64,000 bases of DNA from Flavobacteriales bacterium (GTDB lineage Bacteria; Bacteroidota; Bacteroidia; Flavobacteriales_F; PHOS-HE28): positions 1-64,000 of the forward strand of contig JAGFIV010000132.1 of the NCBI GenBank assembly GCA_024103275.1, read 5' to 3'. Each line of letters starts with the position of its first letter. The stretch's first letter is position 1. Shown piece after piece: positions 42,126-50,534 of this stretch. The notes under the pieces were generated by a model that saw nothing but the letters and a program-made list of their open reading frames with translations, made no database searches and was not told the origin of the DNA. Made by a program: the position numbers and the translations under genes.

Positions 42126-44902
<2,777 letters not shown>

Positions 44903-45833: not shown

Positions 45834-46889
45834 CTAAAACGGGCTCGCCAGCGCCGTGTCGGTCACGAACGCCTCATCGGTGAGGGTGTGCAGGAAAGCC
45901 ACCAGATCGGCCTTCTGTTGGGCGGTCATGCCCAGGGTGATGCCCGTGCCGGGCTTGGTCATGATGGGGTCCAGGCTGGGGGAATGCTTCGCGCCGGCGC
46001 TGTAGAAATCCACCACCTCCTCCAGGGTCTGGAAGCGTCCGTCGTGCATGTACGGTGCCGTGAGCGCGATGTTCCGCAAAGTAGGTGTCTTGAAGGCACC
46101 CAGGTCCATGGGGTTGCCGGTCACCGCATAGCGGCCCACGCCCTGGCCGGCAAATACGCTGTCCAGCCCGATGTTGTGGAACCCGTTGTCCGTCATCAGC
46201 GGCATGGAATGGCAGTGGAAGCAGTCGCCGGCCTCGGTGAAGAATAGCTGGAACCCCCGCCATTCCCCGGGGGAAAGCGCCTCCTCATTTTTCAGGAAGC
46301 GGTCGAACTTGCTGTTGGCGGAGGTCAACCGCCGGAACCATTGGGCCATGGCCTTCTCCACCAGGGGCAACGTGACCTCGCAGGTGCCGAAGGCCTTGCG
46401 GAACAGCTCCGGGTATTCCGGATGGTTGCGCAGCACGCCCACGTCCAGCCGGAAAAACTCCTCCACCTCGTACCGCATCACATCCTCCAGGGTGGGGCCG
46501 GCCGATCCGTCCCAGAGGAAATGGGTGGCCCAGGCCAGGTTGCAATGCGACATCACGTTGGTGTTCCCGATGGCCGGCACACCGGGGTCGGGCACGGTAA
46601 ACGCATGCTCCTGGAAGTGGCAACTGGAGCAGGACTTGCCGGCCAGCGGACCGCTGGAGGAAAGCAGAGGGTCGTAGTACAGGCGGCGCCCCAGCTCAAT
46701 GCCCTCCACCGTCATCGGGTTGTCCGCCGGGATCACGGGATCGGGAAAGAAAGCGTGGTAATCCAGTTGGAATGGCGTGGCAGGGAATGCGCAGGGGTCC
46801 GGCATTTCCGCGGCCGGGTCCTTGCGGCATCCGGCCCAAACGGCCATGGCCGCCACGGCAATACCAAGGAGCGCGGCGCGGGACCTCAT
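45834..46889 (-). CDS. Di-heme MauG/MbnH-like enzyme (cytochrome c peroxidase family), lipoprotein
   Basis: A 351-residue exported c-type cytochrome. The lipobox (AVWAGC, Cys 21) anchors it in the envelope. Two covalent heme motifs are C87-S-S-C90-H91 and C223-F-H-C226-H227, with the family segments LWDGSAGPTLED and TLRNIALTAPYMHDGRFQTLEEVVDFY. The family covers peroxidases and the protein-modifying enzymes MauG and MbnH. The start overlaps the stop of an MbnP-like gene by four bases, the arrangement of mbnP-mbnH pairs in which MbnH oxidises a tryptophan of MbnP to kynurenine to build a copper site. That specific role is inferred from the neighbour. Confidence 0.88.
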   Translation of the reverse strand: MRSRAALLGIAVAAMAVWAGCRKDPAAEMPDPCAFPATPFQLDYHAFFPDPVIPADNPMTVEGIELGRRLYYDPLLSSSGPLAGKSCSSCHFQEHAFTVPDPGVPAIGNTNVMSHCNLAWATHFLWDGSAGPTLEDVMRYEVEEFFRLDVGVLRNHPEYPELFRKAFGTCEVTLPLVEKAMAQWFRRLTSANSKFDRFLKNEEALSPGEWRGFQLFFTEAGDCFHCHSMPLMTDNGFHNIGLDSVFAGQGVGRYAVTGNPMDLGAFKTPTLRNIALTAPYMHDGRFQTLEEVVDFYSAGAKHSPSLDPIMTKPGTGITLGMTAQQKADLVAFLHTLTDEAFVTDTALASPF

Positions 46890-47637
46890 GGAAGGAATTG
46901 GAAGGTGAAGGCGTTGGAGCAGTTATCGCGAAGCAACGCCATCAGCGAGTCGCTGCCCATGCTCTGGTTGCCCGTGGAGAGGTCATAGGTGTGCGGGTCG
47001 CGGAACACTTCGTTCAGGTTGAACACCAGCGCCAATTTCCCTTGGTCGATGCCCACGGTGAACGGTTGCGAAAGCTCACAATGGACCAGGTTCTGATCCT
47101 TGCCCAGGTGCATGGCGAAACCCGTAGGCTGGCCCTGGAGCAGGAAATGGCCCTCGAACTTCATGAAGTGGTAGCCACCGCCCATGGGGATGGGCCACGC
47201 CATGTTCACATGCTCCATGGCGGGCGGCAGGGCGTTGGTCTGGTTCAGCGCCGGCGGCAGGCCCAGGTCCACGCTGATACCGTCGTATCCGCCCGCGGGC
47301 ACCACGCCCAGGTCGAAGGTGTTGGGCCAGGCACCGTTGATGTACCACGGACCCGCCACCAAATGGTCGGCCGTTCCGCCAGCACCTTTCAGGACCAGGT
47401 TGCACAAGTAGTACTCCAAGCGGGTGACGCTGTACCGGTGCCCGCCTCATTGATGTACCGGATGCTGTCGTACGCCAGGGGCTCACCATCCACCCGGTGC
47501 GCCAATTCAAGGGATGTGCGGGACGGGGAAGGGGACGGCGCGGGCGGCGGGCCGGCCTCCTCCTTGCTGCACGAGCCGAGGACGGCCGCGAGAAGGGCTG
47601 CCGCCGCCAAGGGCCGCATTCGCCACGATCGGAGCAT
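46886..47637 (-). pseudogene. MbnP-like copper-binding lipoprotein, frameshifted
   Basis: Two minus-strand frames together make one MbnP-family protein. The N-terminal frame gives a lipoprotein signal (ALLAAVLGSC) and LELAHRVDGEPLAYDSIRYI; after about base 47435 the other frame continues VTRLEYYLCNLVLKGAGG and the family's conserved WPIPMGGGYHFMKFEGHF with the tryptophan near the GYxxMKxEG motif. Adding one G near 47430-47440 restores a continuous protein (reading AGTGYSVTRLEYYLC). It may be a true inactivation or a sequencing or assembly error. MbnP proteins bind copper after MbnH modification. Overlap with the MauG/MbnH gene supports coupling. Starts at 47637 and 47619 are both possible. 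Confidence 0.75.
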
Positions 47638-47685
47638 GTTGTGCGGAACTCGGTGCAAAAGGTAAGGGCCCCCATTTGTCCCGTT

Positions 47686-47701
47686 TCTGATTCTTGTCAT
47701 A
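47686..47701. promoter_or_regulatory. Imperfect Crp/Fnr-type dyad in the divergent mbnP / norS-like intergenic region
   Basis: TCTGA-TTCTTG-TCATA has the same TGA-N6-TCA core as the perfect site before tpl, with one outer base changed. It lies 49 bases upstream of the MbnP-like start and 112 bases upstream of the CuA-subunit start, so it could serve both units. Confidence 0.4.
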
Positions 47702-47812: not shown

Positions 47813-48355
47813 ATGACCGACCATAAGACGCTTTTATGGATCTTCCTGATAGCGGCGGTCCTGATCGCCGTTATTTTCATCGCCGTCTACCGATCGTCGC
47901 TCCAAGCGGCGGAGGACAGCCCGGGGCTGGAGAACCCCAAGCGGAAACGCTTCTTCTTCTTCGCCCTGTTGTTCGCGTTGCTGGTGATCCTGCTGGCGGT
48001 CACCCTCCCGAAATCCCCGTACTACATGCACGCCGACGAAACCCCGGCCGAGGTGGTGTATGTACGGGCCGAGCAGTACAGCTTCAACCTGTCCCGTACC
48101 GAGGAGCTTTCCTATGACGACATGGAACTGCCCGCCGGCAAGGTGATCGAGTTCCGCGTGCGGAGCAAGGATGTCAACCATGGGTTCGGCGTGTACAACG
48201 ACAAGTATGAACTGGTGACGCAAACGCAGGCCATGCCCGGCTATGTGAACCGGCTGCGCTGGGTGTTCGACGAACCGGGCACCTACCACATCCTATGCCT
48301 GGAGTACTGCGGCATGAGCCACCACATCATGAGCTCCTCATTCACTGTTAACTGA
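47813..48355 (+). CDS. CuA-containing subunit II of a heme-copper oxidoreductase (NorS-like)
   Basis: A 180-residue membrane-anchored copper protein with two N-terminal helices (residues 8-25 and 47-65) and a cupredoxin domain. All CuA ligands are present: H123 in VNHGFGVY and C162-L-E164-Y-C166-x3-H170-x2-M173. It accepts electrons from a periplasmic donor and passes them to subunit I, encoded eight bases downstream. It is short and lacks a cytochrome c extension. Because subunit I lacks the His-Tyr cofactor, this may be the CuA subunit of a NO reductase (norS in the norSY-senC set) rather than of an oxidase. Confidence 0.88.
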   Translation: MTDHKTLLWIFLIAAVLIAVIFIAVYRSSLQAAEDSPGLENPKRKRFFFFALLFALLVILLAVTLPKSPYYMHADETPAEVVYVRAEQYSFNLSRTEELSYDDMELPAGKVIEFRVRSKDVNHGFGVYNDKYELVTQTQAMPGYVNRLRWVFDEPGTYHILCLEYCGMSHHIMSSSFTVN

Positions 48356-48363
48356 TCCCATCC

Positions 48364-49809
48364 ATGGAAAACAGATCACTTAAAAAAGTCACCTCGGTCT
48401 GGATCATCACGATCCTGGTCCTTTTCCTTGCCTCGATCACCTTGGGCATCATCATGCGCTTCAACCAGGGCACGCAGTTGCACTTGAAGCCCAATACGTT
48501 CTATGCCACGCTGACCACCCATGGGGTCACCATGATCGGGATCTGGGCCGCCGCCGGCCTGGTGGCCATCAACTACCTCCTTTCCCGGTACGTGAAGACC
48601 TCGGCCGGGCTGAGCATCTTCGCCTTGGTGTTCACCGTGATCGGGGTGGTGATGCTTTGGATGTCCACCTTCGCGGGCAATTTCCACGCCGCCTGGACCT
48701 TCCTCTACCCCCTGCCCTTGGCCCCGTATGCCGCATGGAAGGCCTGGGCCACGAACCTCTTCCTGTGGAGCCTGGTCGTCTTTGGCGTAGGCTGGCTGGT
48801 TTGGTCCGTGGGGATGATGGCGCAGATCCTGAGGAATTATTCCATCACGGAGATCTTCGCCTGGCAGCATCTCACCGGAAAGGAGCCTGAAAAGAAGACC
48901 CCGCCGTTCATCCTGATCTCCTCGGTCTCCCTGATCGGGATCATCCTGTGCCTGTTGGCCGCCGTGGTCCTGCTGGTGTTCTTCTTCATGGAGATGTACA
49001 CCACCGGGGTGAAGAACGACGCGCTGCTGATGAAGAACCTCACTTATTTCTTCGGCCACACCCTGGCCAACGAGGCGCTTTACCTGGGCCTGGCGGCCGT
49101 ATACGAGCTGATGCCCGAGGTGGGCGGCCGCAAGAAATTCGGCACCACCTGGTACGTGGCCCTGGGCTGGAACTGCACCATGGTCTTCGTGCTCACCGCC
49201 TTCTTCCACCACATGTACATGGACTTCGTGCAGCCCGGCGGCTTCCAGATCGTGGGGCAGCTCGCTTCCTACTTCGCCAGCCTGCCGGCGGCCGCCGTCA
49301 CGGCCTTCAGCGTGGCCACACTGGTCTATCGGAACAGGATCAAGTGGTCGTTCACCAACCTGCTGTTCTTCATCGGCATCATCGGCTGGCTGATCGGCGG
49401 CGTGGGCGCGGTGATCGACTCCACCATCAGCAACAACATCATCCTGCACAACACGCTGTGGGTGCCCGCGCACTTCCATACATACAACGCCATGGGGAAC
49501 GTGCTGCTGTGCCTGGGCTTCTTCTGGTGGGCGGCCCATGATTTCTCCGGCACCCGGGACACCTTCCGGTCGCACTGGCCCACGCTCACGCTGCTGCTCA
49601 TCGGCGGCTTCGGCTTCGTGCTGATGTTCTACCTCGGCGGCGCCAGCTCCGTGCCCCGCCGCTATGCCGTCTACCCGGAGGGGATCGCCAACGGCGCGCC
49701 CCTCGCCACTGCGGCCGCATGGTTCGCCGTTGTGTACCTTGTGGGCATGCTGATGGTGTTCCTCACCATCATCCGCAGATGTACAAAAGCCTTCTCGCCG
49801 GCCTCCTAG
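48364..49809 (+). CDS. Heme-copper oxidoreductase subunit I lacking the active-site tyrosine (NorY-like)
   Basis: A 481-residue inner-membrane protein with about 12 helices. Metal ligands are all visible: H53 (TTHGVTM) and H372 for the low-spin heme, H370 (VPAHFHTYN) for the high-spin heme, and H232, H282 and H283 for the second metal. The helix VI segment is GHTLANEALYLG: the residue four after H232, the crosslinked Tyr in A- and B-type oxidases, is Asn236, followed by Glu237. The helix VII position used for Tyr in cbb3 oxidases is Val276. No His-Tyr cofactor is therefore possible at known positions, as in NO reductases. With CuA subunit and SCO in order, it resembles norSY-senC. An unusual oxidase cannot be excluded. 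Confidence 0.85.
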   Translation: MENRSLKKVTSVWIITILVLFLASITLGIIMRFNQGTQLHLKPNTFYATLTTHGVTMIGIWAAAGLVAINYLLSRYVKTSAGLSIFALVFTVIGVVMLWMSTFAGNFHAAWTFLYPLPLAPYAAWKAWATNLFLWSLVVFGVGWLVWSVGMMAQILRNYSITEIFAWQHLTGKEPEKKTPPFILISSVSLIGIILCLLAAVVLLVFFFMEMYTTGVKNDALLMKNLTYFFGHTLANEALYLGLAAVYELMPEVGGRKKFGTTWYVALGWNCTMVFVLTAFFHHMYMDFVQPGGFQIVGQLASYFASLPAAAVTAFSVATLVYRNRIKWSFTNLLFFIGIIGWLIGGVGAVIDSTISNNIILHNTLWVPAHFHTYNAMGNVLLCLGFFWWAAHDFSGTRDTFRSHWPTLTLLLIGGFGFVLMFYLGGASSVPRRYAVYPEGIANGAPLATAAAWFAVVYLVGMLMVFLTIIRRCTKAFSPAS

Positions 49810-50534
49810 CACTCACCCTCGCAGGCCCGGCCCATCCCGACGGCGGCGTGTACGACCTTTCCGAGGAGGAGGGGTTGTACACGCCGATCGCCGATGTGCC
49901 GCTGCACCTCGCATCAGATACCACCCAACTCTCGCGGCTCTATGCCCGGCAACCGGTGATGGTCGCCCTGGTCTTCACCCGGTGCACCGGCATTTGCAGC
50001 CCCTTCCTGCTGCGCCTGGCCGAGGACATGCGGGCCTTGGACCCCCGGGAGAAGTTCAAGGTGCTCGTGGTGAGCTTCGACCCGCGCGATACCCAGGCCG
50101 ACATGGACGGCTACGCGCGGCTGTTCCAACTGGGAGGGGATGATCGCTGGCTGTTTGCCACCACCCCACAGATCGAGGCCCTGACAAGCTCCGTGGGCTT
50201 CCGCCCCACTTGGGACAGCCTGAGCGGGCAATTCGACCACGAGGCCCTGCTGGTGGGCGTGAACGGCAATGGCTACATCATCCGCAAAATGGCGGGCATC
50301 CGCGAACGGAAGGACATCGCCTCGTTGATCAAGACGCTCACCGGTGAATTCATCCCCTCTTACCCCTTGCCCGGAGAGGACCGTCTGCTGTCCTGCTTCA
50401 CCTACGACCCGGTGACCGGTGTGCGCAAACCCTCCTACGGCCTGCTGATCCTGCTGGTCCCGGCGGCGATCACCTTCATCCTGATGTTGTGGATGGGCCT
50501 GGCCAGCCGGAAGTGGCGGCTGAAAAAGAGTTGA
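49779..50534 (+). CDS. senC: SCO1/SenC copper-delivery protein
   Basis: A 251-residue thioredoxin-fold copper chaperone or thiol reductase for CuA sites. A signal or anchor helix opens the protein, the copper motif is C69-T-G-I-C73 with H154 in QFDHEALLV, and a C-terminal helix (LLILLVPAAITFILMLWMGL) provides a second anchor. The start at 49779 lies within the end of the subunit I gene (31-base overlap), showing tight coupling. It should load copper into the CuA centre of the upstream subunit II. The gene order CuA subunit, subunit I, SenC is that of the norSY-senC cluster. Confidence 0.92.
   Translation: MYKSLLAGLLALTLAGPAHPDGGVYDLSEEEGLYTPIADVPLHLASDTTQLSRLYARQPVMVALVFTRCTGICSPFLLRLAEDMRALDPREKFKVLVVSFDPRDTQADMDGYARLFQLGGDDRWLFATTPQIEALTSSVGFRPTWDSLSGQFDHEALLVGVNGNGYIIRKMAGIRERKDIASLIKTLTGEFIPSYPLPGEDRLLSCFTYDPVTGVRKPSYGLLILLVPAAITFILMLWMGLASRKWRLKKS

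Follow-up and report, generated by a model that had tools for sequence, protein, structure and literature searches.

In this study, we describe three consecutive forward-strand genes, norS, norY and senC, in a 64,000-nucleotide stretch of a Flavobacteriales contig (hereafter the window). The first, norS (47813-48355, +), encodes a CuA-bearing subunit II of 180 aa that matches COX2 (PF00116; 32.5 bits, cut-off 22) and has two N-terminal transmembrane helices by its hydropathy peaks (residues 7-25 and 47-65). It is followed by norY (48364-49809, +), which encodes a heme-copper subunit I of 481 aa with 12 transmembrane helices and six histidine ligands (COX1, 164 bits, cut-off 34.8), and by senC (49779-50534, +), which encodes an SCO-type copper chaperone (SCO1-SenC, PF02630; 31.8 bits, cut-off 22.8) carrying the CxxxC motif CTGIC and a histidine within DHEALL. 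All three frames are in the list of open reading frames, where the third opens at 49719. This start appears to be too early, and senC probably begins at the ATG at 49779, a choice favored by the resulting 31-nt overlap with norY, which is similar to that in most relatives; from this codon the protein opens with the signal-like sequence MYKSLLAGLLALTLAG. The overlap of the SCO/SenC gene with subunit I, pointed out in the first-pass annotation, therefore holds at 31 nt with the probable start. There is no sign of recent transfer or of mis-binning of the contig, as GC is 61.4% against 62.8% for the window and GC3 (84-90%) is like that of the neighboring genes.

The subunit I residues listed by the first-pass annotation are all present at the positions it gave: H53, H232, N236, E237, Y240, V276, H282, H283, H370 and H372. 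The active-site segment of helix VI, H232-TLA-N236-EAL-Y240, is encoded at 49057-49083 (+), and Asn236 occupies the site of the cross-linked tyrosine of A- and B-type oxidases, four residues after the histidine (H+4). This replacement is a family trait, the residue being Asn in 85 of 85 relatives in one alignment, which leaves out row L087 (an A-type ORF), and in 49 of 49 in a second alignment made of a diverse subset of the family. Invariant in the 49-row alignment are also the six histidine ligands, Y240, Y247, D287, D352 and the pair H362/N363, and the tyrosine at H+8 of helix VI is kept in 85/85. The alternative tyrosine site of cbb3 oxidases, six residues before the HH pair, is V276 in the window, as had been proposed, and Val or Ile throughout the 49 rows. 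Thus, NorY has neither the H+4 tyrosine of A- and B-type oxygen reductases nor the tyrosine of the C-type (cbb3) enzymes. Likewise, it has neither the H+4 glutamate of cNOR and qNOR (HYWVEGVWEV in L134 and HLWVEGFFEL in L133) nor the H+4 glutamine of the eNOR-like proteins L129-L131 (GHSSQQINV). A published table of active-site residues lists Asp for gNOR and N for sNOR, under which it names Silicibacter (PMC8756737 Table A4), the former genus name of Ruegeria pomeroyi; the window residue is Asn. In contrast, the proposal that Glu237 is the acidic residue typical of NO reductases fails, as it is glutamate in only 63/85 and 28/49 relatives and, lying at H+5 while the glutamate of cNOR and qNOR lies at H+4, it is not their counterpart. 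We have consequently dropped Glu237 as a hallmark of NO reductases. The position of Y240 (49081-49083) is that of the second conserved helix VI glutamate of cNOR (H+8). In NorS, the CuA ligands H123, C162, E164, C166, H170 and M173 do not vary across 21 homologues, confirming that the CuA site is complete.

An AlphaFold model of NorY, made from an alignment in which two plasmid-derived rows were left out, has a mean pLDDT of 92.1, a pTM of 0.93 and 12 transmembrane helices. Foldseek and VIA-align find the heme-copper oxidase fold over the full length of the protein (Z about 37, 18% identity). A structural model placing another tyrosine, for example Y240, within cross-linking distance of H232 had been named as an observation that would speak against a NO reductase. 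In the model, helix VI runs unbroken from residue 220 to 253, and Y240 would lie two turns below H232, eight residues away with a helix rise of about 12 Å (taken from helix geometry), which is twice the spacing of a real His-Tyr pair at H+4. Because the predicted helix is continuous, Y240 would be too far away to be the His-Tyr partner, and we have rejected it as the alternative cross-linking residue in spite of its invariance.

A scan of GTDB genomes recovered 80 related loci, mostly from Bacteroidota and also from Ignavibacteriota, Acidobacteriota, Methylomirabilota, Pseudomonadota and other phyla, with identities to the window protein reaching 69%. A plasmid search added R. pomeroyi DSS-3 (33.8%) and a Burkholderiales search added six loci, one of them from a genome with ammonia monooxygenase. 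Two maximum-likelihood trees, of 92 and 65 sequences, were built with A-, B- and C-type oxidases, qNOR and eNOR-like proteins, and the first also with cNOR references. Locus L015 was left out of the second tree; its row in the first, a neighboring qNOR ORF, fell among the qNORs. The Asn-bearing NorY proteins form one clade (SH-aLRT 100 in the first tree; bootstrap/SH-aLRT 100/100) that includes the R. pomeroyi protein, the Burkholderiales proteins, among them that of the genome with ammonia monooxygenase, and the protein of Candidatus Methylomirabilis, and that stands apart from the A-, B- and C-type oxygen reductases, from qNOR and from the eNOR-like proteins. The eNOR-like proteins L129-L131 group with the B-type oxidases in a different clade (100/99), and NorY is likewise separate from cNOR. 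Subunit I is therefore not inside an O2-reducing clade, the placement that would have spoken against the initial proposal, but monophyletic with the published sNORs at 100/100 among the reference families of these trees. Its nearest neighbors are mostly Bacteroidota proteins. On sequence grounds, NorY, NorS and SenC are a further representative of the already known sNOR family, within a Bacteroidota-rich subclade that lacks orf1.

The closest systems are the norSY-senC-orf1 cluster of ammonia-oxidizing Betaproteobacteria and that of the R. pomeroyi DSS-3 megaplasmid (SPO_RS20760-20745). They share with the window the CuA subunit, Asn at H+4, an adjacent SCO/SenC gene and the 100/100 clade; however, their NorY proteins are only 31-36% identical to that of the window and have Ala or Ser at the E237 site, their clusters include orf1 (a membrane protein of about 190 aa), and the R. 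pomeroyi cluster, unlike the window, adjoins an NsrR-like gene and a nitrite transporter. The sNOR of Candidatus Methylomirabilis (published as Damo_0801-0802; L057 in a related genome) belongs to the window's own subclade (100/100), shares the NE motif of helix VI and is about 52% identical to the window protein. Ca. Methylomirabilis oxyfera and lanthanidiphila have exactly one sNOR each, and in these NC10 hosts it occurs alongside qNOR, gNOR and putative NO dismutases but not NosZ (PMC6094997). Compared by description, qCuANOR type II of Bacillus azotoformans (BAZO_04705-04710), from a different phylum, resembles the window in its short subunit I with 12 transmembrane helices, its CuA subunit with two, Asn in place of Tyr and a nearby SenC (PMC3475470). 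The ba3 oxidase (B-type) of Thermus thermophilus has a similar CuA-fed heme-copper fold and the helix VI tyrosine at H+15 (Y247 in NorY), but it carries Tyr at H+4, has 13 transmembrane helices and falls in a separate clade.

A CuA subunit with all its ligands just upstream of subunit I and a SenC/SCO protein just downstream is the sNOR arrangement, and the NorS-NorY-SenC trio is adjacent in 74 of 95 loci, a recurrence far beyond chance, most exceptions being loci at the end of a contig or with an SCO copy so divergent that it did not cluster. The first-pass annotation had likened this gene order to that of ammonia oxidizers. The order is indeed present, but it is not diagnostic, because the plasmid locus L156, which encodes a Tyr-bearing B-type oxidase, has the CuA subunit, subunit I and SCO in the same order, and we have rejected it as proof of a NO reductase. 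Moreover, the ammonia-oxidizer cluster is norSY-senC-orf1 (PMC3764937), and orf1 is absent from the window and its subclade, being present in proteobacterial loci and in L005, L006, L007 and L177 only. The gene orf1 characterizes the nitrifier cluster and does not define the enzyme.

Genes near sNOR in relatives encode an Rrf2 regulator whose cysteines are conserved (15 loci), a NirC-like transporter for nitrite (8 loci) and DUF2249 proteins. For the Rrf2 regulator of R. pomeroyi, the top NCBIfam model is NsrR, a NO sensor, at 101 bits and below the cut-off of 182. The window locus has no adjacent Rrf2/NsrR-like, DUF2249 or NirC-like gene, and no FNR/DNR-type box is found between 46329 and 53743, including upstream of norS. 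Upstream of norS, a Crp/Fnr gene is present along with a divergent pair of MbnP-like and MbnH-like genes. The di-heme MbnH/MauG-like gene (45834-46889, -) stands beside the MbnP-like gene (46886-47700, -), divergent from the copper enzyme operon; the MbnP-like gene appears frameshifted, with a lipoprotein N-terminus (47389-47700) and a body (46886 to about 47450) in different frames, and could be a pseudogene or contain a sequencing error. We rejected this pair as part of the system, since relatives do not keep it next to sNOR. Farther upstream are two tandem genes for beta-eliminating lyases of the tryptophanase/tyrosine phenol-lyase type (42144-44902, +).

The genome (3.58 Mb, completeness 100%, contamination 1.7%) was surveyed for nirK, nirS and nosZ, as the first-pass annotation had advised. 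It encodes NirK (contig C16, 439 bits, cut-off 296) and a clade II NosZ (contig C124, 924 bits, cut-off 625), both on other contigs than sNOR and not clustered with it, while the profile search found no NirS. Neither cNOR nor qNOR was found, the PF00115 matches being an A-type oxidase, a cbb3-type oxidase and sNOR only; the same profile does recover qNOR and cNOR in other genomes. Therefore, with NirK and clade II NosZ but neither NirS nor cNOR/qNOR, sNOR is the only recognizable NO reductase of this genome. Among 296 genomes of the class, those with sNOR are enriched for nosZ (6/7 vs 100/289, p=0.009) and for nirK (4/7 vs 25/289, p=0.002), in a comparison that has small counts and non-independent lineages, and in which the seven sNOR genes include a broken one. 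Also in this class, a norY stretch with two in-frame stop codons (L178, G427:C13:86597-87388) is apparently a decaying copy. Within the genus, A- and C-type oxidases are near universal and sNOR is patchy, in 3 of 45 genomes from two different subclades. Two congeners (G002 and G022) have nirK and nosZ with neither sNOR nor a clear qNOR or cNOR, so that a missing NO reductase is tolerated in the genus, and the notion of sNOR as a general filler of this slot is unsupported.

Taken together, we think it probable (roughly 0.8) that the locus encodes an sNOR that reduces NO to N2O and links NirK to NosZ, with NorS and NorY as its subunits and SenC as its copper chaperone. The suggestion that it is a NO reductase of the norSY-senC type rather than an oxidase thus gains support from the 100/100 clade and from N236, NO turnover itself being what we infer, together with the electron donor, the physiological role of NO as substrate and the identity of the second metal. 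The donor, either a cytochrome c or a cupredoxin of the periplasm, would deliver electrons to CuA of NorS, from where they would pass to the low-spin heme of NorY (H53/H372) and on to the high-spin heme (H370) and the second metal (H232/H282/H283), at which two NO would be converted to N2O; SenC may assist copper loading. In the superfamily, the cross-linked tyrosine supplies an electron and a proton during O-O bond splitting. With Asn236 in its place, NorY would have no His-Tyr cofactor as internal donor for splitting O2, so that two-electron coupling of NO appears feasible and efficient O2 reduction is hard to reconcile with the site. Nitrite would then be reduced to NO by NirK and N2O to N2 by the clade II NosZ, with sNOR connecting the two.

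A protein that is an sNOR by descent might nevertheless work mainly as a high-affinity O2 reductase in microoxia, with another residue supplying the electron of the lost tyrosine. This has been proposed for the sNOR of Nitrosomonas europaea, which is induced under O2 limitation and lacks the NorB glutamates (PMC6967387), and it agrees with a predicted fold closest to oxidases and with histidine ligands and a CuA site that are all oxidase-like. However, the complete loss of the tyrosine among the 49 aligned relatives, with only Val or Ile at the cbb3 alternative, and a modeled helix VI that seems to offer no tyrosine within reach make this unlikely to us, the more so as the genome already has A-type and cbb3-type oxidases, sNOR co-occurs with nirK and nosZ, and NsrR-like genes accompany it in relatives. 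We consider it less likely still that the enzyme is not sNOR proper but belongs to another Asn-bearing or newer family of NO reductases, bNOR (CuANOR type I) or nNOR. The bNOR enzyme also has Asn for Tyr and a CuA subunit (PMC3475470), and neither it nor gNOR or nNOR was represented in our trees. But bNOR, which we know by description only, is ba3-like, with 13 transmembrane helices in subunit I and one in the CuA subunit (PMC3475470), as opposed to 12 in NorY and two in NorS, the numbers described for qCuANOR type II; moreover, NorY lies outside the clade of B-type and eNOR-like proteins and groups with R. pomeroyi and with Ca. Methylomirabilis, for which a single sNOR has been published.

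The sNOR reading leaves room for two uses of the same reaction. The enzyme may serve NO detoxification instead of respiration or denitrification, a role under which the Nitrosomonas sNOR has been filed (PMC3764937) and to which the NsrR-like and DUF2249 neighbors in relatives and the separation of the window sNOR from nosZ and nirK would be suited; nonetheless, supplying a CuA subunit with electrons from the periplasm is the wiring of a respiratory enzyme, and together with the nirK and nosZ of this genome it would complete the reduction of nitrite to N2, so that we regard detoxification as the less probable purpose. Our more speculative suggestion, which we offer with low confidence, is that the Bacteroidota-rich sNOR subclade conserves energy by coupling NO reduction to charge movement across the membrane while closing the nitrite-to-N2 chain. 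As part of this suggestion, the B-type proton-input path would be kept in part, in spite of the lost cross-linked tyrosine, through Y247 (at the helix VI position of Y248 in T. thermophilus ba3) and possibly T313. If true, an energy-conserving sNOR would complete the path from nitrite to N2 in organisms that are counted, by standard annotation, as having no NO reductase.

The prediction that such an enzyme is easily mis-annotated as cytochrome c oxidase agrees with one survey, according to which KEGG orthology labels sNOR coxA (PMC11388526). NCBIfam assigns no family to the window proteins, the best matches being oxidase models far below their cut-offs (CoxB, 85 bits, cut-off 148; CtaD/CoxA, 79 bits, cut-off 671). 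The interest of the locus lies in this annotation and in its genome context, since the sole NO reductase candidate of a genome with nirK and nosZ would be called coxA automatically, and recognizing sNOR gives a genome apparently without a NO reductase a candidate for the missing step. Such initiator-terminator genomes, with nirK and nosZ but apparently no NO reductase, are reported to account for 9% of Bacteroidota in a survey that did include sNOR references (PMC12569097). We found no purified sNOR in the literature searched, and the family has apparently never been purified; the present lineage would allow the disputed question of NO versus O2 to be tested with no other NO reductase to mask the result. 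As a further observation on heme-copper proteins, loci L124, L127 and L128 encode a divergent subunit I that resembles the C type, is about 480-640 aa long and scores 260-276 bits to ccoN (cut-off 583), and the same subunit is probably present in genus members G002, G010, G022, G028, G041 and G042. In L124 it keeps the tyrosine six residues before the HH pair, and it may represent an atypical relative of cbb3 in Bacteroidota.
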